Positions 1,906 to 61,162 of a stretch of 64,000 nt of DNA are shown in pieces. Position 1 is the stretch's first letter. Each line of letters starts with the position of its first letter. The position numbers and the translations under genes were made by a program. This DNA comes from a virus, in the IMG/VR virus record IMGVR_UViG_3300032304_000956, positions 1 to 64,000 of that record. The stretch is one strand, 5' to 3'. The notes under the pieces are model-generated. The model saw only the letters and a program-made list of their open reading frames with translations. It was not told the origin of the DNA and searched no databases.

Positions 1906-2903
1906 GTAAACTTAAAGTATTGAGTCTGTTTAGTGGTATCGGAGCCTTTGAGAAGGCTTTGACCAACAAAGATGTGGATTTTGAAGTCGTAGGTTTTAGC
2001 GATATTGATAAATATACAGTCCAAAGCTACTGTGCTATACATAATGTAGATGAATCTCTTAATCTTGGAGACGTTACAGAGATTAAAACCGATGAATTGC
2101 CCGATTTTGACCTATTGGTGGGCGGAAGCCCTTGTCAAAACATCAGCAAATGCGGGAATGTCAAAGGTTTGAAGGGTGATGAGTCCAAATTGTTCTATGA
2201 TTATGCTAGAATACTCAATGATAAGCTTCCAAAGTATTTTATCTTCGAAAATGTTGATAATTTGCTCCAAGTTAATGATGGAGAAGACTGGAAGATCGTT
2301 TCAGCTGAATTATCCAAGAATTACAAGATAAAATCTCAAGTCTTAGACTCCAAATACTACAATATACCTCAAAGTCGTAAAAGATTGTTCGTTGTGGGTG
2401 TTAGAAACGATATAGACGAAGAATTTAGCTTCACACCGAGCTTAATACCCACTTCTTTGACCATGAATGACATAATGGACGAGGATGCTGCTGAAAGCCT
2501 GTTTATAACCAACTTTAACGGTCGATATGATGACATTATCGAGAATAACGAGGTCGTATCTGTTAATAAAGGCAATAAAATCAAAAAAGTTGGCAATATC
2601 TACCCAAAGAACGGTCAGAATGGCAATATTTACTCTCCTCACGGCCTATCACCCACCCTTAGAAGCGGTCAGGGCGTTGTAGGCAATGGCATTGGCAGTA
2701 ATAACGCCCCAAAGGTGCTATTAGACGATGGAACTGTGAGAAAGCTTAGTTCTAAGGAGTGTTGGAGGCTTATGGGCTTCTCAGATGCTGATTACGAAAA
2801 TTGCGTTGCGAAAAATGTATCCGCAACGCAATTATACAAGCAATCAGGTAATGCTATAGTCGTTAATGTAATCGAATCTATAGTGGATGACCTTTTAAAG
2901 TAG
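1902..2903 (+). CDS. DNA (cytosine-5) methyltransferase
   Basis: A Dcm-type C5 methyltransferase of 333 aa. The family motifs appear in order: I, LSLFSGIGAFEKAL (SAM binding); IV, GGSPCQNIS with the catalytic Cys; VI, FENVDNLL; VIII, QSRKRLFVVGV; and X near the C-terminus, QSGNAIVVNVIES. All key residues are present, so it should be active. No restriction partner is adjacent, which suggests an orphan enzyme protecting phage DNA or marking it. The start overlaps the primase stop (ATGA). The 3' end overlaps a convergent endonuclease gene by 26 nt. Confidence 0.93.
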   Translation: MSKLKVLSLFSGIGAFEKALTNKDVDFEVVGFSDIDKYTVQSYCAIHNVDESLNLGDVTEIKTDELPDFDLLVGGSPCQNISKCGNVKGLKGDESKLFYDYARILNDKLPKYFIFENVDNLLQVNDGEDWKIVSAELSKNYKIKSQVLDSKYYNIPQSRKRLFVVGVRNDIDEEFSFTPSLIPTSLTMNDIMDEDAAESLFITNFNGRYDDIIENNEVVSVNKGNKIKKVGNIYPKNGQNGNIYSPHGLSPTLRSGQGVVGNGIGSNNAPKVLLDDGTVRKLSSKECWRLMGFSDADYENCVAKNVSATQLYKQSGNAIVVNVIESIVDDLLK

Positions 2904-3924
2904 GTGCTGGTTGGTTGAATTTTAATATTTCTAAGATTTCATCACCCGAATTACTGAATATTATAGTAATATAATTATATCCTTTGTTTACAGCGGCTGT
3001 TCGTTTAGCTTTATTTAAATCAAACATATCGTTATATGTGAATTGGCATTTAACTTCGACTAATAAATTTTTATTTTTTATGTATATATCTGGGAAATAT
3101 GTTTTATTTTTCCCTTTAAATTTATATCGAATATTTGGAACTTTTCTACCAGTTTGAATGTCATTAACATCAATTTTCATGGTTTCAATCAGGTATTTAA
3201 TACCTTGAGGTTCGAACCCTTGTAAATGACTGAACCTACGACCATGAATATCAGATGATTTAAATTTATATCTATTAATATTTGATTTTTCATAAATTTC
3301 AGGATGCTGCATTGGATTTTCAACGCCATACTTGGCAATATATGCGTCCTTTTTTCGTTCGTGTGTAGTTGGAAGATTCGCAGATTCAGTTGATGTCCTT
3401 AAACATATACCCAATTTTAAAAATTTTGATCTTAACCCAGTTGGTGTTATATTATATTTTTGTCCTATCACCTCTAATGTGCTCCCACTTTCATACATTT
3501 CAATAGCATCTTTCAAATCATCTTTATTCTGAAGTTTTCTTGCAATATTTTTAACTTTACCATCTTCTGTTTTACGACTCTCATCAGCTGACCGTATCTC
3601 AACATTTGATTTTTTTAAAAAAGTCTTAATTGCGCCATATGAACATCCTATTATTTTCCGAATAGTTTGAATTGTTAGCTTATCTACGGTATACATTTTA
3701 ATAATATTAGTTTCATGCCCATCTATTTTAGGACTTGCTGCTGATCTAGGTAATTTTCCATTTTTAATTATAATATTTTTAATTGCCTTTCTATCACATT
3801 GATATATTTTAGATAATTTTGATACAGATATTTTATCATCTAGGTGCTGTTTAATTATTTCTTCTTCTTTACCTTGCAAACACAGCAGTTTGCTTTTCCA
3901 AACTACGTCATACTTTAACTTCAT
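2878..3924 (-). CDS. Free-standing homing-type endonuclease, PD-(D/E)xK fold
   Basis: A 348 aa protein. The N-terminal two thirds contain several helix-turn-helix-like repeats (VSKLSKIYQCDRKAIKN, LTIQTIRKIIGCSYGAIKTF, LEVIGQKYNITPTGLRSK), suited to binding a long DNA site. The segment KYGVENPMQHPEIYEKS is typical of phage endonucleases. A nuclease core follows: YFPDIYIKNKNLLVEVKC gives the PD and ExK residues. ATG 3924 is chosen over ATG 3957 because a late promoter ends 5 nt upstream of it and ATG 3957 lies inside a terminator hairpin. It is on the opposite strand to the methyltransferase and overlaps its 3' end, as expected for an invading gene. Very AT-rich. Confidence 0.7.
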   Translation of the reverse strand: MKLKYDVVWKSKLLCLQGKEEEIIKQHLDDKISVSKLSKIYQCDRKAIKNIIIKNGKLPRSAASPKIDGHETNIIKMYTVDKLTIQTIRKIIGCSYGAIKTFLKKSNVEIRSADESRKTEDGKVKNIARKLQNKDDLKDAIEMYESGSTLEVIGQKYNITPTGLRSKFLKLGICLRTSTESANLPTTHERKKDAYIAKYGVENPMQHPEIYEKSNINRYKFKSSDIHGRRFSHLQGFEPQGIKYLIETMKIDVNDIQTGRKVPNIRYKFKGKNKTYFPDIYIKNKNLLVEVKCQFTYNDMFDLNKAKRTAAVNKGYNYITIIFSNSGDEILEILKFNQPAPTLKGHPL

Positions 3925-3929
3925 GTTAA

Positions 3930-3936
3930 TATTTAG
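3930..3936 (-). promoter_or_regulatory. Late promoter CTAAATA
   Basis: 5 nt before ATG 3924 of the endonuclease; decides its start. Confidence 0.6.
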
Positions 3937-3944
3937 AGCAAGCA

Positions 3945-3979
3945 AAAAAAAACTCAACGTATATCGTTGAGTTTTTTTA
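3945..3979. terminator. Bidirectional rho-independent terminator
   Basis: Stem ACTCAACG / CGTTGAGT with a 5-nt loop, flanked by an A-tract on the left and a T-tract on the right, so it can stop transcription either way. It ends the leftward 4510-4004 transcript just before the endonuclease promoter. Confidence 0.85.
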
Positions 3980-5399: not shown

Positions 5400-5636
5400 A
5401 TGAACACCGTTACCCTAACCAGAAAAGCAGGAATTGTAGAAGAAATGAGCCTTTCATCGTTTGCTCGATGGGCTTGTTTGATAGAAGCATTTGAATTTAT
5501 TGATGAAAAAGCAGGTGAATTGGGTCTTAATCTGGAAGATGTTGTAAAACCTCTTGCAATCGACCAGTATATTAATGAAAGATTCCCTGCTATGCTACAT
5601 GACGTTACTATAGAGTCAAAATCAGGTAATATTTGA
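5400..5636 (+). CDS. Hypothetical helical protein, 78 aa
   Basis: A small protein of unknown family. After a short strand (NTVTLTRKAGIVEEM) it is predicted largely helical (FARWACLIEAFEFIDEKAGEL). It has an AAACACTG box rather than a late promoter in front, so it may be expressed earlier than its neighbours. Its 3' end overlaps the convergent glycosyltransferase by 15 nt. Confidence 0.55.
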   Translation: MNTVTLTRKAGIVEEMSLSSFARWACLIEAFEFIDEKAGELGLNLEDVVKPLAIDQYINERFPAMLHDVTIESKSGNI

Positions 5637-6455
5637 TTTGATTTCCTCTTCAATAGACAAAATGTAATCATCATCGACCACTTCTTTAAAGTGGTCTTTC
5701 AATTCATCGAGTGGAAGCCCCAATTCTTTGAACCCGATCATATAATTACGGAATCGGGCTTTTAAATTATTGGGGTAGGACACTCCATTTGGGCGTTGGA
5801 ACCTATGCATCCATCTTAAAAACGGTAAACAGAGTGTTGTTTTACCGTGTTTTTTGTATTTGGTGTGAATGTATCCTTCTTCTCCTCCAAATCCTCTGAA
5901 ATTCTTGTTGAAACCGAGCCAACTATCTTTTCTACAAGCAAAAAGCCCCAATCCTTGCGATGCAATTTCAAAAGGCTCATTATTAGGATCAATTCCTCGG
6001 TCATCAGTTCCCCATGTTCCCCACATATGCGAACGCCACTCTAAATTAAAGTGGGTTGATATGTTTTTCATGTCATCATACAACAATGGACCTTGTAAAA
6101 GATTACCTCGATCCTTCCCAGCATCAAAAAACTCAATTAATTTCTTAATAGCGCCTGATTCTACGAACACATGGCTGTCCATACACAATACATAAGGAGT
6201 ATCAGCCAATTCAAACACTTTATTTCGAACAATTGTTGAATTATACTTCGTAAATGGCAAATATTGAACAGGTTCTTGTATCCATTCAATATATTCGCGT
6301 AATGATTTACCGTGTTTGCTCGTTGGGTTGTTATCAATGATAATAAACTCAACATCATCCAATATTTCCTTATGAAACATTCGAATTGATTGCAATGTAA
6401 AATAAATACCGTCAAAATCATCATGGACAGCCATGCCTATTGTTAATTTTTTCAC
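5622..6455 (-). CDS. GT-A fold glycosyltransferase with DSH motif (GT2/GT27-like)
   Basis: A 277 aa protein starting at GTG 6455. The N-terminus KKLTIGMAVHDDFDGIYFTL is a GT2-type nucleotide-sugar fold start, followed by FIIIDNNP. At about residue 115, LCMDSHVF contains DSH, the metal-binding triad typical of polypeptide GalNAc-transferases (most GT2 enzymes have DxD). Around residue 190, GFGGEEGYIHTKYKKHG resembles the WGGEN acceptor region of that family. It lies 11 nt downstream of a Thr/Ser-rich mucin-like gene in the same direction, so the acceptor could be that protein. The GT-A call is firm; donor and acceptor are inferred. No lectin domain is attached. Confidence 0.8.
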   Translation of the reverse strand: MKKLTIGMAVHDDFDGIYFTLQSIRMFHKEILDDVEFIIIDNNPTSKHGKSLREYIEWIQEPVQYLPFTKYNSTIVRNKVFELADTPYVLCMDSHVFVESGAIKKLIEFFDAGKDRGNLLQGPLLYDDMKNISTHFNLEWRSHMWGTWGTDDRGIDPNNEPFEIASQGLGLFACRKDSWLGFNKNFRGFGGEEGYIHTKYKKHGKTTLCLPFLRWMHRFQRPNGVSYPNNLKARFRNYMIGFKELGLPLDELKDHFKEVVDDDYILSIEEEIKSNIT

Positions 6456-6466
6456 TTCTGTAATTA

Positions 6467-6838
6467 TCAGAATCCTAATTTATTGCAACTGCCAGTTTTA
6501 ATAGAACATTCTAACACCAACGGAGATATTGTGGTGACTTTAGCGGTTGTTGTGCTTGTAGTGATGTAAATTACAGGACGTAGGGTCGTTGATATGCTAG
6601 AAGGGCTTGTAAAGCTTGGTGGTAGGACGAATGGACGTATCGTTGTTGTTGGAGATAATGTGACTGTTGATACAGGAGGAAATACAGTAGGTGTTGTAGT
6701 GGATGTATCTGTAGTGCCAGTTGATGTATTTGTGGTGCTCTCCGTAGTAGTATTTGTGGTCGGTCCTGCTGTAGTGCTAGTGCTAGTGCTGGTGCTAGTT
6801 GAAGTTTCCGGTGGGAATGATGTAGGGTCATCGGCCAT
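6467..6838 (-). CDS. Mucin-like Thr/Ser/Pro-rich protein
   Basis: A 123 aa protein in which 40 residues are Thr and 20 are Ser. Residues 12-60 are almost pure S/T repeats (TSTSTSTST, then TTNTTTESTTNTST) and Pro-rich spacers follow. The C-terminus is different (LVLECSIKTGSCNKLGF) and carries two cysteines. It sits in the leftward tail operon, 3 nt after the lectin-like gene and 11 nt before the glycosyltransferase. Such a composition is a classic O-glycan acceptor, so I infer a glycosylated extended stalk at the tail periphery. The reverse complement is also open (Val-rich) but is a shadow. Confidence 0.7.
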   Translation of the reverse strand: MADDPTSFPPETSTSTSTSTSTTAGPTTNTTTESTTNTSTGTTDTSTTTPTVFPPVSTVTLSPTTTIRPFVLPPSFTSPSSISTTLRPVIYITTSTTTAKVTTISPLVLECSIKTGSCNKLGF

Positions 6839-6841
6839 ATG

Positions 6842-7654
6842 TTACGGATATACTCCAGATAAAGTGTTATAGGTTAATGATCCCAATGATTGTATCTTTG
6901 CAAAAGGAACAATTTCAGTAGTGGTATCTTGGGCGGTGCCTTGAACATGGAAATTCTTAAAAAACATAGTCGCTGGACTATTTAAAGATGATATTGGGGA
7001 ACAGAATGTAAATCCAGCCTTCAATCCAACTTTCTGCGTCAGATAATCTCCAATATATACAGATGTTAAAGTCTGATAAGATGAATCTGTATCATATTTA
7101 AAATCTATCGATATTGTATCTGTGTTTGCATATCTAAATCGCAACGTTTTGTAAGTTTTGGTAGATGAAAGTATTGAAAATGTTGAGTTAAGACTGGATA
7201 ATGACACATTGTAAATTACATTATCTGATCCTTCTCTTATTATGATACTGTTGCGCTTAGTTTGATCCAATCCAACTCCTCCTCTGTTTGCTGATGACAA
7301 CGCGAACAATCCAGTAGTGTCAAATGCAATACAAAGATCACCAACTGTATCATTTCCGTTATTGCCTTCTAATACAATTCGATTGTAATCTTCAGTAAGA
7401 ATAAAATCACCAGATTCAGTTACTAAAAACGCAGATGCTGGTAAATTATCGCTATATCCGAGATACTGGCCCGGAATGGCGGATGTGTTTTGCGTTCTTG
7501 ATGTTAAAAACGTGCAAAATCCAGCTTCAGTTCCAGTCAACGCATATTGAAAACTCCAAGTTATATCATAGCTTGGGTTATATTCATTATTGTTATCAAC
7601 AAACGCGAAGTATTTCGCATTTGCTGGTAATTTTATGTCCGCTGGGAAGCTCAT
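6842..7654 (-). CDS. Beta-rich, lectin-like tail protein
   Basis: A 270 aa beta-strand protein. The pattern DITWSFQYAL, EAGFCTFLT, GQYLGYSDNL and FAKIQSLG resembles a concanavalin/L-type lectin sandwich, although I see no complete metal-binding signature. ATG overlaps the preceding fibre gene stop by 4 nt (ATGA). Its place at the distal end of the baseplate and fibre operon suggests a carbohydrate-binding adhesin or fibre tip. Family membership is tentative. Confidence 0.55.
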   Translation of the reverse strand: MSFPADIKLPANAKYFAFVDNNNEYNPSYDITWSFQYALTGTEAGFCTFLTSRTQNTSAIPGQYLGYSDNLPASAFLVTESGDFILTEDYNRIVLEGNNGNDTVGDLCIAFDTTGLFALSSANRGGVGLDQTKRNSIIIREGSDNVIYNVSLSSLNSTFSILSSTKTYKTLRFRYANTDTISIDFKYDTDSSYQTLTSVYIGDYLTQKVGLKAGFTFCSPISSLNSPATMFFKNFHVQGTAQDTTTEIVPFAKIQSLGSLTYNTLSGVYP

Positions 7655-8793
7655 ATAGTATCTTTAATCAATACAGTAACAGGTAAGTCATAACGAGCTA
7701 ATAGATTAGCCAATGAAAAAACTTCAACAACACAATATGCGCTGGTCGCTTCAGTAACTTTAGCAAACCAACCAAGTCTATCTGAAATTGTATCTGCGGT
7801 TACAAAAGGCATTTGTAGATTAGTAGCAGGATAAGAGAAGCGGAATGTGCCTCTTGACAATCTTGTTGCTGTTAAAGCTGTGGTATTTGATGTGAAAGTT
7901 GATAGTGGAGTAGTGAATGGTCCAACGTCTTGAATATTAAGAACACCCCATTTTTCACTCCATAGAAGACCGGAAGTTGTTTCAAATATAGTAGTAGCTG
8001 CGTTAATAGTTGACAATATGCTAGTATCAAGTCCCAAAACAATGGTGCTCGTCAATGGGTTTGTCGCCACTCCAGTTATGTTAATACCATTACCAGTTGC
8101 AGTTAGACCATTAGTGACTGTTATTGTATTTGTGGATATGTCAACAGCTGATAATTTTGTCCAATTAAGAGTTCCATCGGCCTGTATTCTAGCAAAAGTA
8201 TTATTAACTAATGTAGTCGATGGAAACGTATAAACACTTCCATTGATTCGCAGATTAGTTGGTAATGTTAGATCTGCTGCGCCTGCTGTTGTGATAACAT
8301 TAACTGGGATAGTTGAAGACAGTGATAATTTATTACTATTAGATGGATTTATGTAAATCGGCGCTGCGGCTGCACTTGGATGAATATTATCTGCTGATAT
8401 TTGACCTACTCTTACAGAAGTGTTTGAAATTAAGATACTTCCGTCACCTGCTGTATAAACTCCACCGATAACTGTCCAGTTTCCAGAAATGCTTCCCGGC
8501 AACGCAGTTAATTTGTATAGATACCCCTCATTGGTCGCAAATGCTAAATCTCCAACTTCCGAAGCTTGATAATCGGTTGCGATATTAGCCAATGTGGTTT
8601 GTTCGCCTCTGAATACATTACCAGCTGGAACTCCACCGTAAGTTGATCCATCTCCAATATATAATCTCTTGGTATCGGTGGAATACCCAAGTTCCCCGAC
8701 ACTTAAAACAATTTGTTTTCGTTGAGAGTCTGGACCCTGACGAACAATCAATTTCAGGAGAGTGTTTTCGTATATTTCAATAGATTTTGCCAT
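7651..8793 (-). CDS. Tail fibre protein with Mtd-type N-terminal domain (copy 2)
   Basis: A 380 aa protein. The first 45 residues (KLIVRQGPDSQRKQIV, VGELGYSTDTKRLYIGDG) match the short N-terminal attachment domain of phage tropism-determinant-like fibres, with the GE-x-GY-x-TDT-x-R core. The rest is beta-rich, with Thr/Asn-rich shaft sequence and a C-terminal globular part. It is a diverged paralogue of the upstream gene at 8802-9899, sharing only the N-terminal module. Probable host-recognition fibre. Gap to the upstream gene is 8 nt. Confidence 0.65.
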   Translation of the reverse strand: MAKSIEIYENTLLKLIVRQGPDSQRKQIVLSVGELGYSTDTKRLYIGDGSTYGGVPAGNVFRGEQTTLANIATDYQASEVGDLAFATNEGYLYKLTALPGSISGNWTVIGGVYTAGDGSILISNTSVRVGQISADNIHPSAAAAPIYINPSNSNKLSLSSTIPVNVITTAGAADLTLPTNLRINGSVYTFPSTTLVNNTFARIQADGTLNWTKLSAVDISTNTITVTNGLTATGNGINITGVATNPLTSTIVLGLDTSILSTINAATTIFETTSGLLWSEKWGVLNIQDVGPFTTPLSTFTSNTTALTATRLSRGTFRFSYPATNLQMPFVTADTISDRLGWFAKVTEATSAYCVVEVFSLANLLARYDLPVTVLIKDTI

Positions 8794-8801
8794 ACAATTA
8801 A

Positions 8802-9899
8802 TTAGTAAGCGAAGACTGGAATTGCAAATCGTCCAACCGTTTTATCTCCAAGTCTGGTGGATGTATCCCCTTCAAATACTAGGAATCCAGCAGATGACAA
8901 TTGAAGAACAGCTGAAGACAATCCACTTACAGAAAGCGCAGTAACAACAGTTCTTGTATAACCGGGAAATGCAGTTAGCCCTTTTGTGATCACACCGTTG
9001 TAATTGAAATTGGCACCGTCAACACCTGATAAGATATCATAAATAGATGATCTAATAGCAGCAATTCTACCATATTTATCTGACGATATAGCAGCCATTT
9101 CATTATAAAATGGGGCTCCCGCTCCCGTTTTTAAATCTAATGTGCCATTTGCATTTAAATCGAATGCGTCAGTATTGATGCCTGTAATAGCTGTTCTGAT
9201 GGTAGATGTTGCGTTATCAAGTCGTAATCCATTACCAATCCAAGAGCCTGTTAATGTAGGATAACTGAGAGTAGCAACATCCAAATTACCAGTCGCGTCT
9301 ATCTTCAAGTTGGAAGCTAATTTAAGACCCACTTTTCCTCCATTACCACCACTCAAACCATTTGTGAATGATGCGGATGCCAATTCAAATTCTGTGACAC
9401 CTTGATTGTTAATTTGAAGAGCACTCAATCCACTTAATTTGAATTGAGTAGAATCGTAGTTGACTTTAAGAATACCAGAATCAATTTTAAGACCGCCAGT
9501 TACATAAGATGGATTGATTTTAATTGGAAGTATTCCATTATCTTTTAACGTTATGTAATTGTTTGATGACAATTCAAAAAACCTATTGTCAATTCTTGGA
9601 CCGACTGGATACCAAGATGATATTGAGGTGTAGGAAGAACCTGTTAATTGATAGAATTGGTTATTAGCATATACCAAATCGCCAACTTGAGAGTTTGTGC
9701 TAGTCAAAGAGGCATAACTGTTTGAAACAGGATGCACTTTTGATCCCACTACAATACCACCAGATAGCGTTCCAGTCCCTACGAACACTCTACGAGTATC
9801 AACAGTATATCCCAACTCACCCTCATCTAAAATGACGGATTTGCGTTGAGAATCCAGTCCTCTACGAACTTTAAATTTTGTAATTTGAATACTTGACAT
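8802..9899 (-). CDS. Tail fibre protein with Mtd-type N-terminal domain (copy 1)
   Basis: A 365 aa protein. The N-terminal module FKVRRGLDSQRKSVI, then GELGYTVDTRRVFVGTG, is the same attachment domain as in its downstream paralogue. The middle is repetitive beta sequence (LKIDATGNLDVATLSYP) typical of a trimeric fibre shaft, and the C-terminus (FLVFEGDTSTRLGDKTVGRF) may be the tip. It follows the collar-domain gene by 3 nt. A host-adhesion role is inferred from architecture and position. Confidence 0.65.
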   Translation of the reverse strand: MSSIQITKFKVRRGLDSQRKSVILDEGELGYTVDTRRVFVGTGTLSGGIVVGSKVHPVSNSYASLTSTNSQVGDLVYANNQFYQLTGSSYTSISSWYPVGPRIDNRFFELSSNNYITLKDNGILPIKINPSYVTGGLKIDSGILKVNYDSTQFKLSGLSALQINNQGVTEFELASASFTNGLSGGNGGKVGLKLASNLKIDATGNLDVATLSYPTLTGSWIGNGLRLDNATSTIRTAITGINTDAFDLNANGTLDLKTGAGAPFYNEMAAISSDKYGRIAAIRSSIYDILSGVDGANFNYNGVITKGLTAFPGYTRTVVTALSVSGLSSAVLQLSSAGFLVFEGDTSTRLGDKTVGRFAIPVFAY

Positions 9900-9902
9900 A
9901 TA

Positions 9903-10592
9903 TTAAGCGGTTCTTTTCCAAATGTAGAGACCAAATGAAGGAGGCGTGAGAGATACTGGTGATCCAAGACCGTCAGTTGCTGCTGTATTTCCTACTGTGG
10001 ATGTTCTACCAAGAGTCGGCGCAGTTGTGCTACCTCTCAACAAATAAGCTTGGTCAAGTGATACAGCCGCACCGACAGCGACTGACTTACTTTCTGTGAG
10101 AGCATTTGCTGATGTCGCTTGAACTATGTCTGCATTTGAAACATAGTGATAATGCGGAGGCAGATTAGTAGAATCTAGTGACGTTTGGTATTTTCCTTGG
10201 TTACTACCAGCGACAACTGTATTTTGATTACCTGTTGAATCTGTTCCTGTTCCAACACCAGCGACAAATCGACCATCTGCAATAATTGTCCAAGCACCAC
10301 CCATGAATGTAGATGGGTTTTGATTTACAGCAGTAAAATAAACACTTCCAACAGGGAACAACACATCAATCAACGGTTTGATATCTGTAGATGTTGGGTA
10401 TGTCACATTACCAGCTGTAAAAGGACCGCTGATAACGGCCCCTTTATCTTTAGCTCCAAGAGATAGCGCGGTTTGTTTGCCATCGCCATCATAGATATCA
10501 TCAACTCCTGATGAAGGAACTCCGTCGTTGGACAAAGTATGTAACAGTGATTTGTAAGTGTCAGAAATAAACTGGTTTTCCAAAGATTTCAT
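9903..10592 (-). CDS. Tail-collar-domain protein (short tail fibre gp12-like)
   Basis: A 229 aa protein. Residues about 75-115 (FPVGSVYFTA, NPSTFMGGAWTII, GRFVAGVG) match the phage tail-collar domain. LPPHYHYV supplies an HxH motif like that coordinating metal in T4 gp12. The C-terminus (SLTPPSFGLYIWKRTA) closes the collar fold. It begins a late-promoter unit and heads the adhesin genes. The likely role is an irreversible-adsorption fibre or baseplate-attached spike. At less than half the length of gp12, it probably lacks most of the shaft. Confidence 0.75.
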   Translation of the reverse strand: MKSLENQFISDTYKSLLHTLSNDGVPSSGVDDIYDGDGKQTALSLGAKDKGAVISGPFTAGNVTYPTSTDIKPLIDVLFPVGSVYFTAVNQNPSTFMGGAWTIIADGRFVAGVGTGTDSTGNQNTVVAGSNQGKYQTSLDSTNLPPHYHYVSNADIVQATSANALTESKSVAVGAAVSLDQAYLLRGSTTAPTLGRTSTVGNTAATDGLGSPVSLTPPSFGLYIWKRTA

Positions 10593-22334: not shown

Positions 22335-22661
22335 TTATTCTGATTTCTTTTTCGGAGTTTTCCAAGATACTCGTTCAGAACTTTTCTTTTTATACATTTT
22401 ACCTTTAATCTTCTTACACTGTGCTTTTGTAGGGCGACATGCAGGATAAGATCCTTTTGAAGTGTTGTTTCTTCCACATGGACCACCTGTTTTGCAATTG
22501 ATCCATCCTTTGAATTTCTTGCCTTTTTTATCAACATGCGGAGCAAACCAATCTCTTAGGTTTTCCAACAATTGCAGTTGTGTGTATTCTTCTACTGTGG
22601 ATTCAGAAAAAGTTAAACGCTCTTCAATTACAGAGTTGTATAATTTATCGAATGTATTCAT
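22335..22661 (-). CDS. Small basic protein (DUF5872-like) with candidate capsid-targeting tag
   Basis: 108 aa from ATG 22661, which overlaps the preceding stop (TAATG). The body LRDWFAPHVDKKGKKFKGW, then GGPCGRNNTSKGSYPACRP resembles the small DUF5872-type proteins of phages and giant viruses. The C-terminus is Lys-rich. The N-terminus MNTFDKLYNSVIEERL repeats the FDKLYN tag of the intein-bearing neighbour and contains IEE, a possible prohead-protease site. I infer a packaged basic head protein. The longer upstream frame belongs to the neighbour's other frame. Confidence 0.65.
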   Translation of the reverse strand: MNTFDKLYNSVIEERLTFSESTVEEYTQLQLLENLRDWFAPHVDKKGKKFKGWINCKTGGPCGRNNTSKGSYPACRPTKAQCKKIKGKMYKKKSSERVSWKTPKKKSE

Positions 22662-23683
22662 TATTTCATTTTGCCTTTTCGTTTTACACACTTCTGAACA
22701 TAACCAGAGTTGCCAGTTATTGATATAATTCCACGACCATCTGTTTCTTGCATCATGACCCATGTGTTATTCTTAGTTTGGGGACACCAAACATCGCAAT
22801 TATTTATGGTTTGTAATTTGAAATTTGATGTGTTTTTATGACGTTTATTTGATATGTAAGTGCATGAATAAATATCTTTAGTTTTTGATTTTATCCAAGT
22901 TACAGATCCACCGTTTAAAAAAGCTGATAATAAAAATGCATCTCTGTGCATTATATCTTTCTGTTTGAATGCAAAATGTTGTTTACCATGATGTCCATCA
23001 TATTCCCATTCAAGAGGATCTACATTTTCAGTATTTTCTAACACACGTTCTGTTTTTTGTTGATTTCCATCATACACAATAGCACTAAATAGCCATGCTT
23101 GTCGCTGTCCAACATCACAGTCTAATAAATATTTTATCCAATTATCACCGTATTTGTATATTTTATTTTTAGTCAAACTTTCACCGCCATGATATGGAGC
23201 GGACACTACGATATTTTTGTTATGTCTATGATTTAATATACTGTCAGTATCTTCCAACCTAATTGTTCTATGGTCTGTTGAATCATTATTTTTTTTACTT
23301 GTTCTTTTTTTTGCAGATTTGACAACCCAGTTATGATTTCCCGTGCTTTCAAATATAAAACCAGTATGACCACTTCTTACAATTTTTGTCTCAGCGTCTT
23401 TGTAACGGTGTATGTTTTCAATTGGCTGAAACTCTAATTCATCTTTTTCTATATTGTAAGTTAATATATCCTCATTTATAGATAATTCATTTACTGATTT
23501 CCAACCATCTCTGGTCAACGCTTTCGAAGAAGACTCAGGAACACAAGCATATGCGCTGGGCCATACATCATACTTAGCTTTCGCTTTGGCCTGACAAGAC
23601 GCTCTCACTTTCGAAACTTTCTTCTTTTTCTTCTTTGTATACTTTTCAAGAAGAAGATTGTATAATTTATCAAAATTGCTCAT
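22661..23683 (-). CDS. Small basic head-cargo protein interrupted by an intein
   Basis: 340 aa precursor. Residues 1-46 (MSNFDKLYNLLLEKYTKKK ... YDVWPSAYA) and 326-340 (SGYVQKCVKRKGKMK) are the two halves of a 61 aa basic phage protein; joined, they rebuild the family motif YDVWPSAYASG. Between them is a 279-residue intein. The N-terminus has the FDKLYN tag with LLE, a candidate prohead-protease site. Start 23683 is chosen because the tag matches that of neighbouring genes; an in-frame ATG 23728 directly abuts an ATAAATA. Mature function is unknown: likely a DNA-associated or packaged protein. Confidence 0.75.
   Translation of the reverse strand: MSNFDKLYNLLLEKYTKKKKKKVSKVRASCQAKAKAKYDVWPSAYACVPESSSKALTRDGWKSVNELSINEDILTYNIEKDELEFQPIENIHRYKDAETKIVRSGHTGFIFESTGNHNWVVKSAKKRTSKKNNDSTDHRTIRLEDTDSILNHRHNKNIVVSAPYHGGESLTKNKIYKYGDNWIKYLLDCDVGQRQAWLFSAIVYDGNQQKTERVLENTENVDPLEWEYDGHHGKQHFAFKQKDIMHRDAFLLSAFLNGGSVTWIKSKTKDIYSCTYISNKRHKNTSNFKLQTINNCDVWCPQTKNNTWVMMQETDGRGIISITGNSGYVQKCVKRKGKMK
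22709..23545 (-). mobile_element. Intein with degenerate LAGLIDADG region
   Basis: Starts with Cys1 in CVPESSSKALTRDGWKSV (block A), then ESTGNHNWVV (block B, TxxH). It ends NTWVMMQETDGRGIISITGN with terminal Asn followed by extein Ser+1. The penultimate residue is Gly rather than the usual His, as in other phage inteins ending TGN. Between the blocks, WLFSAIVYDGNQQ and AFLLSAFLNGGSVTW sit where two LAGLIDADG helices would be but lack the usual acidic pairs, so homing activity is doubtful. Total 279 residues. Confidence 0.85.
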
Positions 23684-23775
23684 AAGTGTGGATTTTTTAC
23701 TTCGAAGAATATTTAATTTATGTTCCATTATTTATGATTATTTTGTATAATATTTTTAACACCAATCTCTACAAG

Positions 23776-26167: not shown

Positions 26168-27075
26168 TTAACAATATCTTCCAATGCAAGGATACATGCG
26201 AAAGCGTTGATTTCCTTGTCAATAACGGAAAAACTCCTAAACAGGCTATCTGCAATTTGTATGATAGCCTGTTTCTTTTGTAGCTCGTTCATACTTACAT
26301 CGTAGATGTAGTTGAGCAGATCAGTAAGTAATTGATCATAGTCGCTATCAAAAGTATGATCATTCTCGATCAAATACTTTCTGGTTTGCAAAGACGACTT
26401 GTTCAAAATGCCTGTCCAAATGTAACTACACAGATCATTTGTGTTGGTTTTCTCACCAATGCTCAAAACACCACCAATGCAATGCTTTTGCATTTCGTTG
26501 ATGCACTTACGAAGATCAGGAAACTGATCTTTAACAAGACGAACAAGAAGTTTTTGCTGTTCTGCTGAAACTTTAATGTCTTCGTTTTTCAGAATATTCA
26601 AACATCTAAGCACAGCACTTTTTAAAGTTGGCTTGATATCCACACTTTGGCATCGACTTTGAAGAGGGGCGATGATTCTATGCTTATAGTTAGCTGTAAG
26701 GATGAATCTAGCGACTTTATGGTAATCTTCCATGAGATTACGCAAACAACGCTGAGCATCCTTACTGAGTCCGTCAGCTTCGTCAAGAACAACGACCTTA
26801 ATACCGCCATCGAAACTTTTTGTCTGAACAAATCCAGTCACTTTGGTTCGAATATTATCAATACCAGTTTCATCAGAAGCATTGATATACAAGTAGTCAC
26901 ATTTCAACACATCTTGAACTAGAATTCTAGCGATTGTGGTTTTACCAGTTCCCGCATGACCTGCGAACAGGTAATGGGGAATATCGGTCGTGATTTCATT
27001 GAAGATTTTCCTAGCAGCGTCTGATAAGCAAACTTCGTCAAATTTCGTTGGGCGGTATTTCTCGGTCCAGATCAT
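26164..27075 (-). CDS. Sliding-clamp loader ATPase, gp44/RFC-small-like
   Basis: A 303 aa AAA+ protein. Visible motifs: N-terminal WTEKYRPTKFDEV; Walker A GHAGTGKTT; Walker B VVVLDEADGL; sensor 1 FILTANY; and the SRC arginine-finger motif QSRCQ. Length agrees with T4 gp44 (319 aa). It should load the phage sliding clamp for replication and, in T4-like phages, for late transcription. Its start overlaps the RmlA stop by 4 nt. The gp62 partner is not in the window. Confidence 0.92.
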   Translation of the reverse strand: MIWTEKYRPTKFDEVCLSDAARKIFNEITTDIPHYLFAGHAGTGKTTIARILVQDVLKCDYLYINASDETGIDNIRTKVTGFVQTKSFDGGIKVVVLDEADGLSKDAQRCLRNLMEDYHKVARFILTANYKHRIIAPLQSRCQSVDIKPTLKSAVLRCLNILKNEDIKVSAEQQKLLVRLVKDQFPDLRKCINEMQKHCIGGVLSIGEKTNTNDLCSYIWTGILNKSSLQTRKYLIENDHTFDSDYDQLLTDLLNYIYDVSMNELQKKQAIIQIADSLFRSFSVIDKEINAFACILALEDIVN

Positions 27076-27815
27076 ATTTCTTGTAGTCCTAGTTTTTTGT
27101 TGGATCGATGCGTTATTGTTCTAACCAAGTTAGCGCAATCTAAGAGGCTATCAAACGATCCAACGTCAAACCAGAGGATATCACGCAATTCTTCAACGTC
27201 AACACCCTCAACCACATTTAATTCTTTGATCAAATCGACAATTTCAAGCTCTTTTCGTTTGGATGGCTTTAAAGTTTTAGCAATTTGAACTGCTGCGTTC
27301 GTAAACACATACAACCCAACAACAGCATCATCACTAACATACTCAGTAGGCTTTTCCACAATGTCAATCAAACTACCATTTTCATCAATAGATGCAACGC
27401 CATAAGCTTCTGGATTTTTGACTTTATATGTGTAGATGGTATTTGGCTGAATTGAAAGAGTTTGATCACCGATGAAGATATTATCACCCAAAATGAGAGT
27501 AACATCATCTCCTCCGATCCATTTATCAGCTATGATGAACGCTTCAGGTAATCCATTTGGTTTGTCTTGGATTCTGTATTCAAAACGCATACCATATTTT
27601 TTACCATTGCCAAGCAAATCATAAAACATGGTGAGTTGGTGCTTATCAGCGCAGATGATCATAACATCAACATATCCCATCTTCTGCAAAGTGCCAAGAC
27701 TATACATAATAACAGGCTTGTCATAAATTGGAAGAAGTTGTTTACTAATTCCAAATTGAGTTAGTGGATACAATCTGGTTGCTTTGCCACCAGCAAGAAC
27801 AATTGCCTTACCCAT
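27072..27815 (-). CDS. rmlA: Glucose-1-phosphate thymidylyltransferase (RmlA)
   Basis: A 247 aa protein. GKAIVLAGGKATRLYPLTQ is the nucleotide-binding loop of sugar-phosphate nucleotidylyltransferases. SKQLLPIYDKPVIMYSL and LILGDNIFIGD (catalytic Asp region) are RmlA-specific, as are VEKP and the late WFDVGSFDSLLD. It makes dTDP-glucose from dTTP and Glc-1-P. Slightly shorter than bacterial RmlA (about 290), lacking part of the C-terminal helices. It has an AGGAGG Shine-Dalgarno, rare in this window. Followed by the clamp loader. Confidence 0.92.
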   Translation of the reverse strand: MGKAIVLAGGKATRLYPLTQFGISKQLLPIYDKPVIMYSLGTLQKMGYVDVMIICADKHQLTMFYDLLGNGKKYGMRFEYRIQDKPNGLPEAFIIADKWIGGDDVTLILGDNIFIGDQTLSIQPNTIYTYKVKNPEAYGVASIDENGSLIDIVEKPTEYVSDDAVVGLYVFTNAAVQIAKTLKPSKRKELEIVDLIKELNVVEGVDVEELRDILWFDVGSFDSLLDCANLVRTITHRSNKKLGLQEI

Positions 27816-28692
27816 TTAGCACCTCCTGTAGAATTTCTTTTTCACTTCTCATACGATGAATTTTCATAGCTTTTTCGTTGTTTAATACACAGTTACTGCG
27901 TCCAGCAATGATCGGAATATCTTCAATTGGAACAAACTCCCATTCTGGATTGCCTTCTCCAAATGAATTTACAATTCGCACCAACTCTTTAGTGTCTAAA
28001 GGTTCTGGATTGACAACATTGTAAATGTCCTGTCCAGTCCATTTAGTGTCTGGATTGCTTATGAGCTTGTTTACAAAAATACAAAGATCTGGAATGTATG
28101 TTTTGCTGTTTTTGTAATCGATCAGCTTGTTATACTTCTTTATTTTTGATAGATAGCTGCGGGAATCGTTCAAACTACTGATCGGCATTCGAATTCTTAC
28201 TATCTTAACTGGCAGATGCCTCGTCATCAATTCAAAGGCGTGTTTTGTTTTGCTATAGAATGAGCTTTCGTTGTCAAATAGACCGAAATTTGGAGCATCC
28301 TCTTCTGTGTATTCTTTGGTGTAATCAGTATAAATGCAACCGCTGCCTATGTGGATGTATCGTTTGCCAGCTTTTTGACAAAGTTCAGCGCATTGAAATG
28401 GGGACGTTACATTAAGATGCCAACAAAGATCCTTTTTGGATTCAGCTTCGTCAATATTTGGTCTTCCTGTAAATCCACTGCAATTGATAACGATCAATGG
28501 ATCGTAATTGGCGATCAGTTCCATCCACAAATCGCGGCGATTGTGATAATCAAGATCAGAGGAATCTACAATTTTAACGGTGTGTCCTTGAATTGACAGG
28601 TAACTTTGAAGGTAATTGCCGATATAGCCGTTACCCAAAATTAGTATTTTACTCAGGATCGTATTCTTCTTCGATGAAGGTTCGGATATCAT
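27808..28692 (-). CDS. NAD(P)-dependent sugar-nucleotide reductase/epimerase (RmlD-like SDR)
   Basis: A 294 aa extended SDR. KILILGNGYIGNYLQSYL is the Rossmann GxGxxG. ESSFYSKTKHAFE gives the catalytic YxxxK, with GSGCIYTD supplying the Ser region. The overall pattern fits dTDP-4-dehydrorhamnose reductase-like enzymes acting after RmlA/RmlB, although another dTDP-sugar is possible. It overlaps rmlA by 8 nt. The ATG start overlaps the upstream gene by 44 nt; a non-ATG start closer to KILILG cannot be excluded. Confidence 0.75.
   Translation of the reverse strand: MISEPSSKKNTILSKILILGNGYIGNYLQSYLSIQGHTVKIVDSSDLDYHNRRDLWMELIANYDPLIVINCSGFTGRPNIDEAESKKDLCWHLNVTSPFQCAELCQKAGKRYIHIGSGCIYTDYTKEYTEEDAPNFGLFDNESSFYSKTKHAFELMTRHLPVKIVRIRMPISSLNDSRSYLSKIKKYNKLIDYKNSKTYIPDLCIFVNKLISNPDTKWTGQDIYNVVNPEPLDTKELVRIVNSFGEGNPEWEFVPIEDIPIIAGRSNCVLNNEKAMKIHRMRSEKEILQEVLNG
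27822..27827 (-). promoter_or_regulatory. Shine-Dalgarno AGGAGG before rmlA
   Basis: A perfect AGGAGG, 6 nt before ATG 27815. Most starts here lack any such sequence, so rmlA is an exception. Confidence 0.7.
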
Positions 28693-28911: not shown

Positions 28912-30162
28912 ATGTCAACAAAAATCTCTGAACTTAACGTAAATAGTTCCGGTTATACTGGAGCGGAACTTATACCGTTGGTCAAAAATGGGCAGACTGT
29001 TTCGGGAGCGGTTAGCGGTCTTCCATTTGCAAGGACCACAGTTAATAATAATTTTACAACAAGTCAGACCATTTTTGGTTCTTTAACATCAAGTTCTGTT
29101 GTATTGAGTGGAAACATTTTAAATTTAAAAAGCATAGGAAGCTCATCTATCGGAATTACTAATACCAATATAACAGGTTTGACTGATTCATTTTTTGTTG
29201 GTCGAGGCGCAGGCAGTAATGCATCTGGAGCAAATAGATCGACGTTTATTGGATTAAGTGCTGGTCAAGATGCTACAAATGCATCTAATTCTAATTTCTT
29301 AGGTCAAAATGCTGGTCAGAGTGCTAGAAATGCTAGCAATTCTAATTTCTTAGGGTTATCCGCTGGTAGTGGTGCTACAGATGCTAGTAGTTCTAATTTC
29401 TTAGGATATTATGCTGGTTATAATGCTACAGATGCTAGTAGTTCTAATTTCTTAGGATATTATGCTGGTTATAATGCTACAAATGCTAATGGTTCTAATT
29501 TCTTAGGGAGTGATGCTGGTAGTGATGCTACATATGCTAGTTATTCTAATTTCTTAGGGAATGCTGCTGGTATTGGTGCTACACTTGCTAATGGTTCTAA
29601 TTTCTTAGGGAGTGATGCTGGTAATGGTGCTACAAATGCTAGTTATTCTAATTTCTTAGGGAGTGAGGCTGGTAGTGGTGCTACTAATGCTAATAATTCT
29701 AATTTCTTAGGGGCTAATGCTGGTTATGATGCTATAGATGCCTCAAGTTCCAATTTCTTCGGACGAAATGCTGGTAAAAGTGCAAGCTACGGCGTTGCCT
29801 CTAATTTTATTGGAAATTATGCTGGTGAAAATGCTACCTATGCCTCATTTTCCAATTTTATCGGTTTAAGTGCTGGTGCTAATAGCACCACTGCATCAGA
29901 ATCAGTCTTTATTGGAGCTTATTCTGGTGGTGGTGTTACTGGTGCTCGTAATACATTTCTTGGAGCGACCACTAAAACGACTTCTCCCAGTTTTTCTGGA
30001 TGTTTAGCATTAGGTTATGGTGCGCAAGCAAATAGAAACAATCAACTGGCAATAGGATCAACTCAAGTCCCTCTTGTAACAGCTAATACAGGAACTTCGA
30101 CTGGAAGTTATCTTATAGTTCGTATAAACGGTGTTGATAGAAAGCTTTTAATTTTTGATTAA
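28912..30162 (+). CDS. Repetitive tail-fibre/adhesin protein (17-residue repeats)
   Basis: 416 aa. The N-terminus (STKISELNVNSSGYTGAELIPLV) is typical of phage tail appendage proteins. Residues 93-364 are sixteen tandem 17-residue units built on SNFLG-x(2)-AG-x(2)-AT-x-A, in exact register, like the beta-roll repeats of trimeric YadA-type adhesins (compare CLALGYGAQANRNNQLAIGS after the repeats). A short C-terminal domain ends VDRKLLIFD. Probably a trimeric fibre shaft. It is outside the main fibre cluster and on the opposite strand. Confidence 0.7.
   Translation: MSTKISELNVNSSGYTGAELIPLVKNGQTVSGAVSGLPFARTTVNNNFTTSQTIFGSLTSSSVVLSGNILNLKSIGSSSIGITNTNITGLTDSFFVGRGAGSNASGANRSTFIGLSAGQDATNASNSNFLGQNAGQSARNASNSNFLGLSAGSGATDASSSNFLGYYAGYNATDASSSNFLGYYAGYNATNANGSNFLGSDAGSDATYASYSNFLGNAAGIGATLANGSNFLGSDAGNGATNASYSNFLGSEAGSGATNANNSNFLGANAGYDAIDASSSNFFGRNAGKSASYGVASNFIGNYAGENATYASFSNFIGLSAGANSTTASESVFIGAYSGGGVTGARNTFLGATTKTTSPSFSGCLALGYGAQANRNNQLAIGSTQVPLVTANTGTSTGSYLIVRINGVDRKLLIFD
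29188..30003 (+). repeat. 51-nt tandem repeats (16 units) within the fibre gene
   Basis: Units start every 51 nt. Those between about 29290 and 29750 are near-identical at DNA level (TCTAATTTCTTAGG recurs), and outer units are diverged. This allows unequal recombination to change fibre length. Confidence 0.85.
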
Positions 30163-37929: not shown

Positions 37930-39633
37930 ATGAATTTAAAAAATGAAATACGTAAATGTTTTGATGTTAAGGGCAACTTAAGTTTTAAAAAAATATCAAA
38001 AAATTTATTAAATGAGATAATAAAAGCAACGTCATTTCTCGATGAATATAATGCGAAGCCCCAAGAGCGAGTTTATTGCATACTTAATGATATTAAAGAA
38101 ATTATAAAATGTCCAATTACAAATAAAAAATTAAGATATTCTCCGCAGAATAAAAAATACAACAATTCATTTAATTATAGTCAAAAAAACAAAGTTGTAA
38201 AAAATAAATTCAATTACACAGAAAAAAACAAAAGATCATCTGATGAATTGAAACAAAAATATTTAAATTCTGATTATAGTTTAATGAGTAAAGAAGAGTG
38301 TTCTGCATTTTTTCATAAACATTCAACCCAAGATAATGTTTCGTTTAGCATCTCTCGACTATCAAAATATCCTAATTTTGCATGTAGTGTTTTTTATTAC
38401 ACTCCATTCATTACATTGGATGATTTTTCAATATCTGAACGTGTTTATTGCATAGAACATAATATACAGACAACCCCAACAGATGATGAAAATAATCCTC
38501 TACCATTTATAAACAGGAAAAAAGGATATAGTAAATATGCATCCCGCAAAGACATGCATGAAAAACAAATGATAACTATATCATCTCAAATAGAAGAAAA
38601 ATTTGAAATCTTATCGTTCATTAAAGACCAAAATACGACTACAACATCCAGAGTTGAAGTTAAATGCAAACAATGTGAACACATTTTCAAACCATTATTT
38701 AAAAATAAATTATGGAGCGTTATATATTGCCCTAATTGCAATGGTCATTCTGGCAGATCAAGAGAAGAAAATGAAGTTGTTGACTTTTTAAAAACTTTAG
38801 GGGTTGATAATATCATTTTAAATGACAGAAACGTGCTTAATGGACATGAATTGGATATTTATCTCCCCGACCATTCATTGGCAATTGAATACAATGGAAT
38901 TTTGTGGCATTCATTCGGAACAACATTTCCGAATAACGCGGAAGATGAATCATATAAAAAACATAAACATTTAAAAAAGTATGAACAATGTTTAGATCAA
39001 GGGATATCTTTGATTACGATATTTGACAATGAATGGAAATTGAAAAAAGATATAATAAAATCGATATTGTGTAATAAATTGAAAAAAACGTCTAATAAAA
39101 TATATGCTCGTAAATGTAAATACAGTGAGGTTGGTTTGGATATTGCTAAAAAATTTCTTGATGTAAATCATAGACAAGGTTCTTGTAAATTTACAAAAGC
39201 TATTGGGTTATATTACAATAATGAACTGGTATCTTTGATGTGTTTTGGAAATAGAAAAATTACCAGAGGGGCATCAACATATGAATTAATTCGATTTTGT
39301 AATTTATTAAATACTCAAGTTATTGGGGGTGCTAGTAAAATTTTAAAACATTCAAACATTAAAAAATTTATATCTTATTGCGATTTGAGATACAGTAATG
39401 GCGAATTATATAAAAAATTAAATATGAAATTAATATCAAAATCAAAACCAAACTATTATTATACATCAGACAACATCGTTCTATTACATAGAATGAATTT
39501 TCAAAAACACACATTGATAAAAACGGCGTCTGATAAAGAGAAAACAGAAAGAGAATTAATGTATGAAAGGGGTTACAGGAGAATCTACGATTGCGGCAAT
39601 CTGGTATTTTTGTATGACGCGGACGCTTTTTGA
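37930..39633 (+). CDS. Free-standing homing endonuclease, Vsr-like (EDxHD-type) fold
   Basis: 567 aa. The middle has a zinc ribbon (CKQCEHIF ... CPNCNG) leading into GRSREENEVVDFLKTLGV, then HELDIYLPDHSLAIEYNGILWHS and KKHKHLKKYEQCLDQGISLITIFDNEW. This is the catalytic core of the phage EDxHD/very-short-patch-repair-like homing endonucleases. The C-terminal 170 residues (ARKCKYSEV, GASTYELIRFCNL) are a typical partner domain. It is inserted between sheath and tube genes downstream of a terminator; no canonical late promoter is seen. Very AT-rich. Confidence 0.85.
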   Translation: MNLKNEIRKCFDVKGNLSFKKISKNLLNEIIKATSFLDEYNAKPQERVYCILNDIKEIIKCPITNKKLRYSPQNKKYNNSFNYSQKNKVVKNKFNYTEKNKRSSDELKQKYLNSDYSLMSKEECSAFFHKHSTQDNVSFSISRLSKYPNFACSVFYYTPFITLDDFSISERVYCIEHNIQTTPTDDENNPLPFINRKKGYSKYASRKDMHEKQMITISSQIEEKFEILSFIKDQNTTTTSRVEVKCKQCEHIFKPLFKNKLWSVIYCPNCNGHSGRSREENEVVDFLKTLGVDNIILNDRNVLNGHELDIYLPDHSLAIEYNGILWHSFGTTFPNNAEDESYKKHKHLKKYEQCLDQGISLITIFDNEWKLKKDIIKSILCNKLKKTSNKIYARKCKYSEVGLDIAKKFLDVNHRQGSCKFTKAIGLYYNNELVSLMCFGNRKITRGASTYELIRFCNLLNTQVIGGASKILKHSNIKKFISYCDLRYSNGELYKKLNMKLISKSKPNYYYTSDNIVLLHRMNFQKHTLIKTASDKEKTERELMYERGYRRIYDCGNLVFLYDADAF

Positions 39634-39644
39634 TAATCACATAA

Positions 39645-39651
39645 CTAAATA
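39645..39651 (+). promoter_or_regulatory. Late promoter CTAAATA
   Basis: 5 nt before ATG 39657. Confidence 0.55.
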
Positions 39652-39656
39652 ACTAT

Positions 39657-40226
39657 ATGCCAGCGAATATTGAAACATTCTTCTCTCAAGCTTCCCAAAA
39701 GCAATTTGCCAGAGACTTCCTATTTAGAATCAAAGACATTTCCTTTCCGGGTCTTTCCTTAAGGGGAGAAACCGATCTTGTTTATGCCAAGGCGGGAACT
39801 TTACCGGGCCGAACAATTGAAAACAAAACTGTCAGTTATGCTGGTCAAGTTTTCAATATCGGAGGTAGAGCTACCTATGAAGGTGCTGAAGGTTATTCCA
39901 TCAGCTTCTATTCAGACCAAGCCCTTGATCTTAGAACAAAGCTTGAAAACGCTTCCCGAGTAGCGTTCAACAACGAAGACACTACTGCGAATCTTTGTAT
40001 GCCCGGACCAGAAAGCTCCATCACTCTTGATATTCTTGCAATTCCTTGCACAAGAGATATCAATGCAACTTCAGGTCAACCACTTCAAATCGTCAAGACC
40101 ATCAAGTTGATTGGTGTTGGCATTCGTAATATCGGAGCTTTGACTTATTCTATCGCAGAAGGAACTGGTGATATTGTATCATTTGATGCTACATTTAGTT
40201 ATCACTGGTATGAAGATTTCAGTTGA
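39657..40226 (+). CDS. Tail tube protein, gp19-like (paralogue 2)
   Basis: 189 aa. FARDFLFRIKDISFPGLSLRG, ENKTVSYAGQVFNIGGRATY and GYSISFYSDQALDLRTKLE follow the gp19 pattern, and ATFSYHWYEDFS ends with the typical tube strand. T4 gp19 is 163 aa. As the copy closest to the sheath and the most gp19-like, it is my candidate for the main tube subunit. Confidence 0.7.
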   Translation: MPANIETFFSQASQKQFARDFLFRIKDISFPGLSLRGETDLVYAKAGTLPGRTIENKTVSYAGQVFNIGGRATYEGAEGYSISFYSDQALDLRTKLENASRVAFNNEDTTANLCMPGPESSITLDILAIPCTRDINATSGQPLQIVKTIKLIGVGIRNIGALTYSIAEGTGDIVSFDATFSYHWYEDFS

Positions 40227-48596: not shown

Positions 48597-48624
48597 TTGA
48601 CAAGTGAGCATTTGGTGCTAAATG
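48597..48624 (+). promoter_or_regulatory. Promoter before rmlB (TTGACA-N16-TAAATG)
   Basis: A sigma70-like -35 TTGACA at 48597 and -10 TAAATG at 48619. The -10 (as CTAAATG) again ends 5 nt before ATG 48630. Confidence 0.55.
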
Positions 48625-48629
48625 TAGGT

Positions 48630-49619
48630 ATGCTCAATCTGAATCACAAAAACATATTAATTACTGGAGGTAATGGATTTATTGGAAGTAATTTTATAGA
48701 ATATATTAATAAACATTATACTTATGTTAATATTATAAATATAGATAAACAAGGAGTGGGATGGAGAGAAATAAGGTCTATTAAGTTTATTAATCATAAT
48801 ACTTATACTGAAATAGTTCGTAGTGTATGTGATATTGATAATATTGGGGGATATATAGATACTATTGATTATGATTATGTATTCCATTTTGCAGCAGAAT
48901 CTCATGTAGATAGATCTATTACCAATCCATCATCCTTTGTATACAATAATTCTTATGGGACTGCTGTATTATTGGAATATCTATTAAAGAAAAAGTCTAA
49001 CGCTAGAATTATCTGTATTTCTACAGATGAAGTGTATGGCCATTTACACTTAGATGATCCTGCATTTACAGAGGATACTCCTCTCAATCCAAGAAGTCCA
49101 TATTCTTCTTCTAAAGCTGCTAGTGATTTAATTGCATTGTCATTCCAAAGCACATTTGGTATAGATATTATTGTTACTCGTTGTTGTAATAATTTTGGAC
49201 CGCATCAGAATGATGAGAAATTCATTCCTACCATTATTAAGAATGTTGTAAATGGTAAGAAGATTCCTGTTTATGGTCAAGGCACCAATATTAGAGAGTG
49301 GATTCACGTTGATGACCACAATAAGAGTATTCTTGAAATTGCTGAAAGTGGCGAATCTGGTAAAGTATACAACATTGGCAGCGGTGTGGAAAAAACAAAT
49401 TTGGAATTGATTCGAGAAATCATTGACATTCTGCATCCAGATGCTACGGTCGATTCAAATTCATTCATCGAATTCGTAGAAGATCGTAAAGGTCATGATT
49501 TTCGCTATGCTATTGATACAGTAAATTACACCAGAGCATTTGAACCAATGGACTTCAGCTATGCTTTAAAGGCGACCGTTGAATTCTACAAAAACAAATT
49601 CACCCCTAGCACATCATGA
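48630..49619 (+). CDS. rmlB: dTDP-glucose 4,6-dehydratase (RmlB)
   Basis: 329 aa from ATG 48630 (an ATG at 48597 overlaps the -35). NILITGGNGFIGSNFIEYI is the NAD-binding GxxGxxG. FHFAAESHVDRSI, ISTDEVYG and SPYSSSKAASD (catalytic Tyr-x3-Lys) are diagnostic for RmlB, as is GPHQNDEKFIPTII. It converts dTDP-glucose to dTDP-4-keto-6-deoxyglucose, the step between the RmlA and RmlD-like enzymes found 20 kb away. The first half is more AT-rich than the second. The stop overlaps the next small gene. Confidence 0.94.
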   Translation: MLNLNHKNILITGGNGFIGSNFIEYINKHYTYVNIINIDKQGVGWREIRSIKFINHNTYTEIVRSVCDIDNIGGYIDTIDYDYVFHFAAESHVDRSITNPSSFVYNNSYGTAVLLEYLLKKKSNARIICISTDEVYGHLHLDDPAFTEDTPLNPRSPYSSSKAASDLIALSFQSTFGIDIIVTRCCNNFGPHQNDEKFIPTIIKNVVNGKKIPVYGQGTNIREWIHVDDHNKSILEIAESGESGKVYNIGSGVEKTNLELIREIIDILHPDATVDSNSFIEFVEDRKGHDFRYAIDTVNYTRAFEPMDFSYALKATVEFYKNKFTPSTS

Positions 49620-52137: not shown

Positions 52138-52142
52138 ACATG

Positions 52143-52149
52143 TATTTAC
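52143..52149 (-). promoter_or_regulatory. Late promoter GTAAATA
   Basis: 5 nt before ATG 52137 of the GIY-YIG gene. Confidence 0.5.
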
Positions 52150-52151
52150 AC

Positions 52152-52179
52152 TTGACAATCCAAAAATCCATGATATTAT
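52152..52179 (+). promoter_or_regulatory. Sigma70-like promoter TTGACA-N16-TATTAT
   Basis: Drives rightward genes from 52190. The ATG at 52178 falls inside the -10, so the next in-frame ATG (52190) is more likely used. Confidence 0.6.
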
Positions 52180-60814: not shown

Positions 60815-60817
60815 ATC

Positions 60818-61027: not shown

Positions 61028-61045
61028 ACAAGTCTAATAGAACAA

Positions 61046-61147: not shown

Positions 61148-61162
61148 ACTACTAGAACAGAA

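Follow-up and report, generated by a model that had tools for sequence, protein, structure and literature searches.

The window, that is, the whole stretch of DNA analysed here, covers 64 kb; the uncultured virus record from which it is taken measures 69.8 kb, and annotation of the window identified genes of T4-like type for terminase, sheath, tube and baseplate wedge. Within the window, two neighbouring genes lie on the minus strand: the gene for a mucin-like protein (6467–6838) comes first, and a 277-aa GT-A glycosyltransferase with a GTG start (5622–6455) is encoded 11 nt downstream, which confirms the gene order given in the first-pass annotation, where the enzyme was suggested to glycosylate its neighbour. 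Upstream of the pair are tail genes with Pfam-type domain matches, encoding a 270-aa protein, two Mtd_N proteins and a Gp10_C protein (6842–10592, minus strand), as well as a baseplate wedge gene, while a convergent 78-aa gene (5400–5636, plus strand) marks a site that is conserved with or without the enzyme. Since the enzyme gene is located between phage tail genes and replication genes, it is a phage-encoded glycosyltransferase. Elsewhere in the window, a tandem array of at least five YopX-like paralogues occupies 60147–63498 (plus strand; PF09643 confirmed in both paralogues scanned); a GIY-YIG/NUMOD homing-endonuclease-like gene is present at 51268–52158 (minus strand); a 416-aa protein with about a dozen SNFLGxxAGxxAT repeats (28912–30162, plus strand) has a fibre- or adhesin-like look and no Pfam or PHROG match; a 355-aa ORF (22661–23728, minus strand) resembles by eye an intein or Hint-type insertion, with no match in Pfam; and a gene for a DUF7487 protein (2878–3957, minus strand) adjoins a cytosine-5 DNA methyltransferase gene (1902–2903).

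The mucin-like protein is the proposed acceptor, and its relatives lie upstream of the enzyme in most loci. Translation of its gene yields 123 aa, with the 40 Thr and 20 Ser already counted in the first-pass annotation and 14 Pro, and the main Thr/Ser tract, read off the translation, covers residues 12–51 (6686–6805, minus strand). It is the sole convincing mucin-like ORF in the window; the remaining low-complexity matches are small plus-strand ORFs, two of which are antisense to an acidic gene. When the protein, a low-complexity sequence, was used as a search query, no match was obtained. In 39 distinct Thr tracts, the Thr codons are mixed, with a mean entropy of 1.47 bits and a longest identical run of about 3 of 15; threonine itself, and not a repeated DNA unit, therefore appears to be selected, and DNA slippage is unlikely to be the sole origin of the tracts.

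The protein ends in a conserved C-terminal tag, CSIKTGSCNKLGF (residues 111–123; 6470–6508, minus strand), which was not mentioned in the first-pass annotation. The tag follows the pattern C-x(2-14)-C-[N/K/D]-x-L-x-[F/Y/W]-stop, and almost every protein encoded immediately upstream of the enzyme ends in it. These upstream proteins range from 103 to 2431 aa and, their C-termini apart, have largely unrelated sequences; in several phages, two or three tandem tagged Thr-rich paralogues stand ahead of the enzyme. Scanning the collection for CNK[L/F]GF-stop returned 21 stretches, in nine of which a long tagged protein is immediately followed by the enzyme and in two of which (L080 and L095) a tagged protein occurs without it, the other ten being unrelated chance matches. 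The N-terminal parts of tagged proteins differ widely (in L218, L191 and L204 there is either none or a long chain of one of several kinds), which suggests that display is modular, with the C-terminal tag as the fixed part. The tag most likely attaches the protein to the tail; it is probably not a recognition signal for the enzyme, a role made unlikely by its retention in phages that lack the enzyme.

The enzyme matches PF00535 with 45.2 bits against a gathering cut-off of 23.3 (E 1e-11), and the same model matches all 46 aligned relatives (at E up to 1); because PF00535 also covers GT27, this match does not decide between GT2 and GT27. The first-pass annotation had based its assignment on two landmarks of polypeptide GalNAc-transferases, LCMDSHVF (residues 90–97) and GFGGEEGY (residues 188–195), both of which are present in the 277-aa sequence. 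In the former, DSH (residues 93–95; 6171–6179, minus strand) is a putative metal-binding DxH with D93 and H95 invariant, DxH occurs in 46 of the 46 relatives, and the GT2-type DxD metal motif is absent. In the latter, the acceptor loop reads FGGEE (residues 189–193; 5877–5891, minus strand) and not WGGEN; F189 is invariant, GGEE is kept in at least 90% of the relatives, and the core GGE of the site in more than 90% of the 46. A putative third metal ligand is H217 (5805–5807, minus strand) in a WxHxF motif, of which W215, H217 and F219 are invariant in the 46 relatives. These conserved positions are taken here to be the equivalents of DxH, WGGEN and the third His in GalNAc-T2, and the colinear alignment (1–277 to 135–416) appears consistent with this correspondence. 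A C-terminal ricin-type lectin domain is usual, not universal, in GT27; none was detected in the phage enzyme, whose 277 aa end with the GT-A domain and in which Pfam finds only PF00535 and weak GT2-like models. The dN/dS of the enzyme is 0.06 and 0.08 against the relatives in L002 and L003, indicating purifying selection and thus a real gene. In two other loci, a gene judged radical-SAM-like by eye overlaps the start of the enzyme's frame (L004, 8949–10004; L040, 8917–9999).

An AlphaFold2 model built on the alignment of the 46 relatives has a mean pLDDT of 95 and a pTM of 0.92, and its nearest folds in the PDB are those of ppGalNAc-transferases. All of the best 50 PDB matches obtained with Foldseek are ppGalNAc-transferase chains (E 4e-14), and with VIA-align 2 the 29 closest PDB entries are all GT27 ppGalNAc-transferases, with Z between 24.8 and 20.6; in a typical superposition, about 257 of 277 residues align at about 2.9 Å with 14–18% identity. 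After these come the K4 chondroitin polymerase K4CP (Z 18.8) and the TDP-rhamnose enzyme RmlT (Z 18.4). The comparison with GT27 and GT2 structures proposed in the first-pass annotation thus places the model nearest to GT27 by fold, but the sequence profile of the 46 relatives, when searched against the PDB, finds GT2 chains only and no GT27 chain. Because of this profile result and the missing lectin domain, the enzyme was not filed in GT27, and membership on the basis of the motif alone was rejected, as the profile and two features, WGGEN and the lectin domain, speak against it; going by its predicted fold, the enzyme is GT27-like, not a proven GT27 member.

Searches of IMG/VR yielded more than 110 loci with relatives of the enzyme, and the first 75 of these were grouped into 30 enzyme clusters at 80% identity. 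In 18 of the 30 clusters, the gene immediately before the enzyme is mucin-like, compared with 7 of 390 other genes of the same loci (Fisher p 2e-18, relatedness ignored), so that the co-occurrence in related phages on which the first-pass annotation had made its proposal depend is seen, with the pair conserved in many of them. Counting mucin-like genes within three genes of the enzyme gives 24 of 30 clusters, a measure that says little because its background is 27%. The gap between the tagged gene and the enzyme is 10–13 nt in 60 of the 61 pairs that could be measured (65 tagged pairs in all), and in L111 the two genes are convergent and still adjacent. In L128 and L134, the enzyme is convergent to a tail protein without a tract, and in L035, L043, L057, L068 and L070, where the enzyme has other contexts, no mucin-like gene lies within three genes of it. 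The pairing itself is real and conserved, and its specificity is such that an enzyme–substrate relation is its best explanation, one that we judge probable. Three enzyme queries against INPHARED matched none of 50,697 phage records, and none of 40 pattern matches in bacterial genome contigs was confirmed. Meanwhile, a GT60-like gene (PF11397, above cut-off) occurs near Thr/Pro-rich genes and the GT27-like enzyme at 13689–14990 in L004 and at 38994–39896 in G024 (the L005 record); as general support from a second polypeptide-type family this is weakened, because in Xanthomonas phage XacN1, which carries the nearest annotated relative, no mucin-like neighbour of that gene is annotated.

The site beside the 78-aa gene was also fetched with and without the enzyme by two primase-anchored searches, the second of which enlarged the sample because the first covariation test had contained only three enzyme-less clusters. 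A tract was scored when Ser and Thr together made up at least 45% of any 30-residue window within the last 120 residues. A tagged protein stands next to the 78-aa gene in 68 distinct loci; 51 of these contain both enzyme and tract, 7 the enzyme only and 10 neither, while a tract without the enzyme occurs in none; the tract is thus present in 51 of 58 loci with the enzyme and in 0 of 10 without it (Fisher p 7e-8, relatedness ignored). If the tract may lie at any point of the protein, 3 of the 10 enzyme-less tagged proteins have one. The enzyme changes five times on the primase tree, three of them on starred branches (three to five independent changes), and in independent pairs the tract moves in the same way as the enzyme or stays equal, never opposite, in a contrast that cannot reach significance with only three pairs. 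No copy of the enzyme was found elsewhere in the longest enzyme-less tagged records (fragments of 171 and 150 kb) by a search that recovered four of four positive controls. In addition, the enzyme occurs in 18 loci (a redundant count) whose site contains no tagged gene, and proteins of 1000–2350 aa with TP/SP repeats occupy the same site without enzyme or tag in L274, L283, L284 and L288. Tract and enzyme are associated but not inseparable, given the tract-less loci with the enzyme and the TP/SP-repeat proteins at enzyme-less sites.

Together, the nearest folds, the invariant DxH, H217 and F189, the linkage, the tract–enzyme association, the codon mixture and the dN/dS favour the reading of the two genes as an enzyme–substrate pair, in which the enzyme O-glycosylates the Thr/Ser stalk of its neighbour, and we consider this the probable one. 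In such a mechanism, the tail-region protein would consist of up to three modules, namely an optional N-terminal domain, a Thr/Ser-rich tract and the conserved Cys-containing C-terminal tag. The tract-bearing gene would be read first, and the GT27-like enzyme would be translated next from the same operon and transcript. In the host cytoplasm, the enzyme would hold a divalent metal through D93, H95 and H217 and transfer a sugar from a nucleotide-sugar to Thr and Ser residues in the tract of its neighbour; the product would be a stiff stalk, coated with sugar and resistant to proteases, which the tag would then attach to the tail of the virion. As regards the sugar donor, the window encodes an RmlA-like thymidylyltransferase and an RmlD-like reductase (27072–28692, minus strand; below equivalog cut-offs) and an RmlB-like dTDP-glucose 4,6-dehydratase (48597–49619, plus strand; below cut-off), all of which may contribute to its supply. 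RmlB-like matches, several of them weak, are present in 18 of 25 enzyme-bearing records, and an RmlC that would complete dTDP-rhamnose synthesis is found in none of the 25; a dTDP-deoxysugar is as open a donor candidate as UDP-GalNAc.

Glycosyltransferases are common in environmental phage genomes and have been read as modifiers of host surface sugars or of phage DNA. The main rival explanation is that the enzyme alters a host surface glycan (O-antigen or capsule) and so blocks superinfection or receptor re-binding, the tail-fibre region being a hotspot of host-interaction genes. The RmlA/B/D-like sugar-nucleotide genes of the phage, the position of RmlT, a TDP-rhamnose enzyme whose substrate is a wall polymer, at Z 18.4, the relatives without a mucin-like neighbour, and the interpretation published for glycosyltransferases in the host-recognition region of pelagimyophages (PMC7029224) all agree with this, but it does not predict the fixed spot 10–13 nt behind a Thr-rich gene, the missing tract where the enzyme is missing, or a fold nearer to polypeptide than to polysaccharide transferases, and no membrane anchor was noticed when the enzyme sequence was read by eye; we regard it as unlikely. 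Still less probable is an enzyme that glycosylates another phage molecule, whether another virion protein or DNA, and shares only ancestry and position with the Thr tract: one syntenic arrangement is common to many loci, so that the linkage is partly inherited, and enzyme-bearing loci without a tract exist, but the linkage also holds in different contexts (L004, L005, L038, L073, L076 and the convergent L111), and the predicted fold is of the polypeptide-transferase type. A role as a flexible linker for an unmodified tract, with the linkage due to coincidence, is very improbable in view of 18 of 30 against 7 of 390 upstream genes and 51 of 58 against 0 of 10 tracts, even though the TP/SP-repeat proteins at enzyme-less sites imply that such tracts do not need the enzyme.

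The enzyme–substrate pair offers a specific, testable alternative to the readings given so far, in which a phage would glycosylate its own tail-region protein, with enzyme and acceptor both defined and with a built-in control in the same tagged protein, which lacks the tract where the enzyme is missing. If this holds, GT27-type polypeptide O-glycosylation would extend to phages, mucin-like proteins could be produced in bacteria with a compact enzyme, and the finding would bear on the origin of the animal enzyme family. The wider proposition, to which we give even chances, is that a widespread lineage of uncultured T4-like phages has its own mucin-type O-glycosylation, with a GT27-like transferase and dedicated Thr-rich stalks anchored to the tail by the C-terminal tag, which is undescribed in cultured phages. 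No account of a phage that pairs a GT27-like enzyme with a mucin-like protein was found in the literature covered, which leaves out most subscription journals.

Animal ppGalNAc-transferases (GT27) start the sugar chains of mucins. The phage enzyme is like them in its GT-A fold, nearest by structure, in its DxH, GGE and third His, and in having a Thr/Ser-rich acceptor candidate, but it differs in having no lectin domain, FGGEE in place of WGGEN and no sequence-level GT27 match, and in being phage-encoded and linked to its putative substrate. Bacterial serine-rich-repeat adhesins likewise have a Ser/Thr-rich stalk with its enzymes encoded beside it; there, dedicated linked glycosyltransferases, GtfA/GtfB, act together with accessory export, whereas the phage gene pair has one GT27-like enzyme. 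The marine pelagimyophages are also T4-like phages with glycosyltransferase genes, most commonly GT8, near tail-fibre genes, but these have been interpreted as modifiers of host O-chains, and the words mucin and threonine are absent from the text (PMC7029224). According to the passages of PMC11256854 and PMC12619734 that cite Freeman et al. 2023, mycobacteriophage enzymes glycosylate virion proteins, with the reported glycans located at the C-terminal ends of capsid and tail-tube subunits. Phage-encoded glycosyltransferases are thus common to both systems; as described in those passages, a virion protein is decorated there, whereas here the decoration is putative, with a dedicated mucin-like protein of the tail region as its candidate acceptor and a GT27-like transferase as the enzyme.
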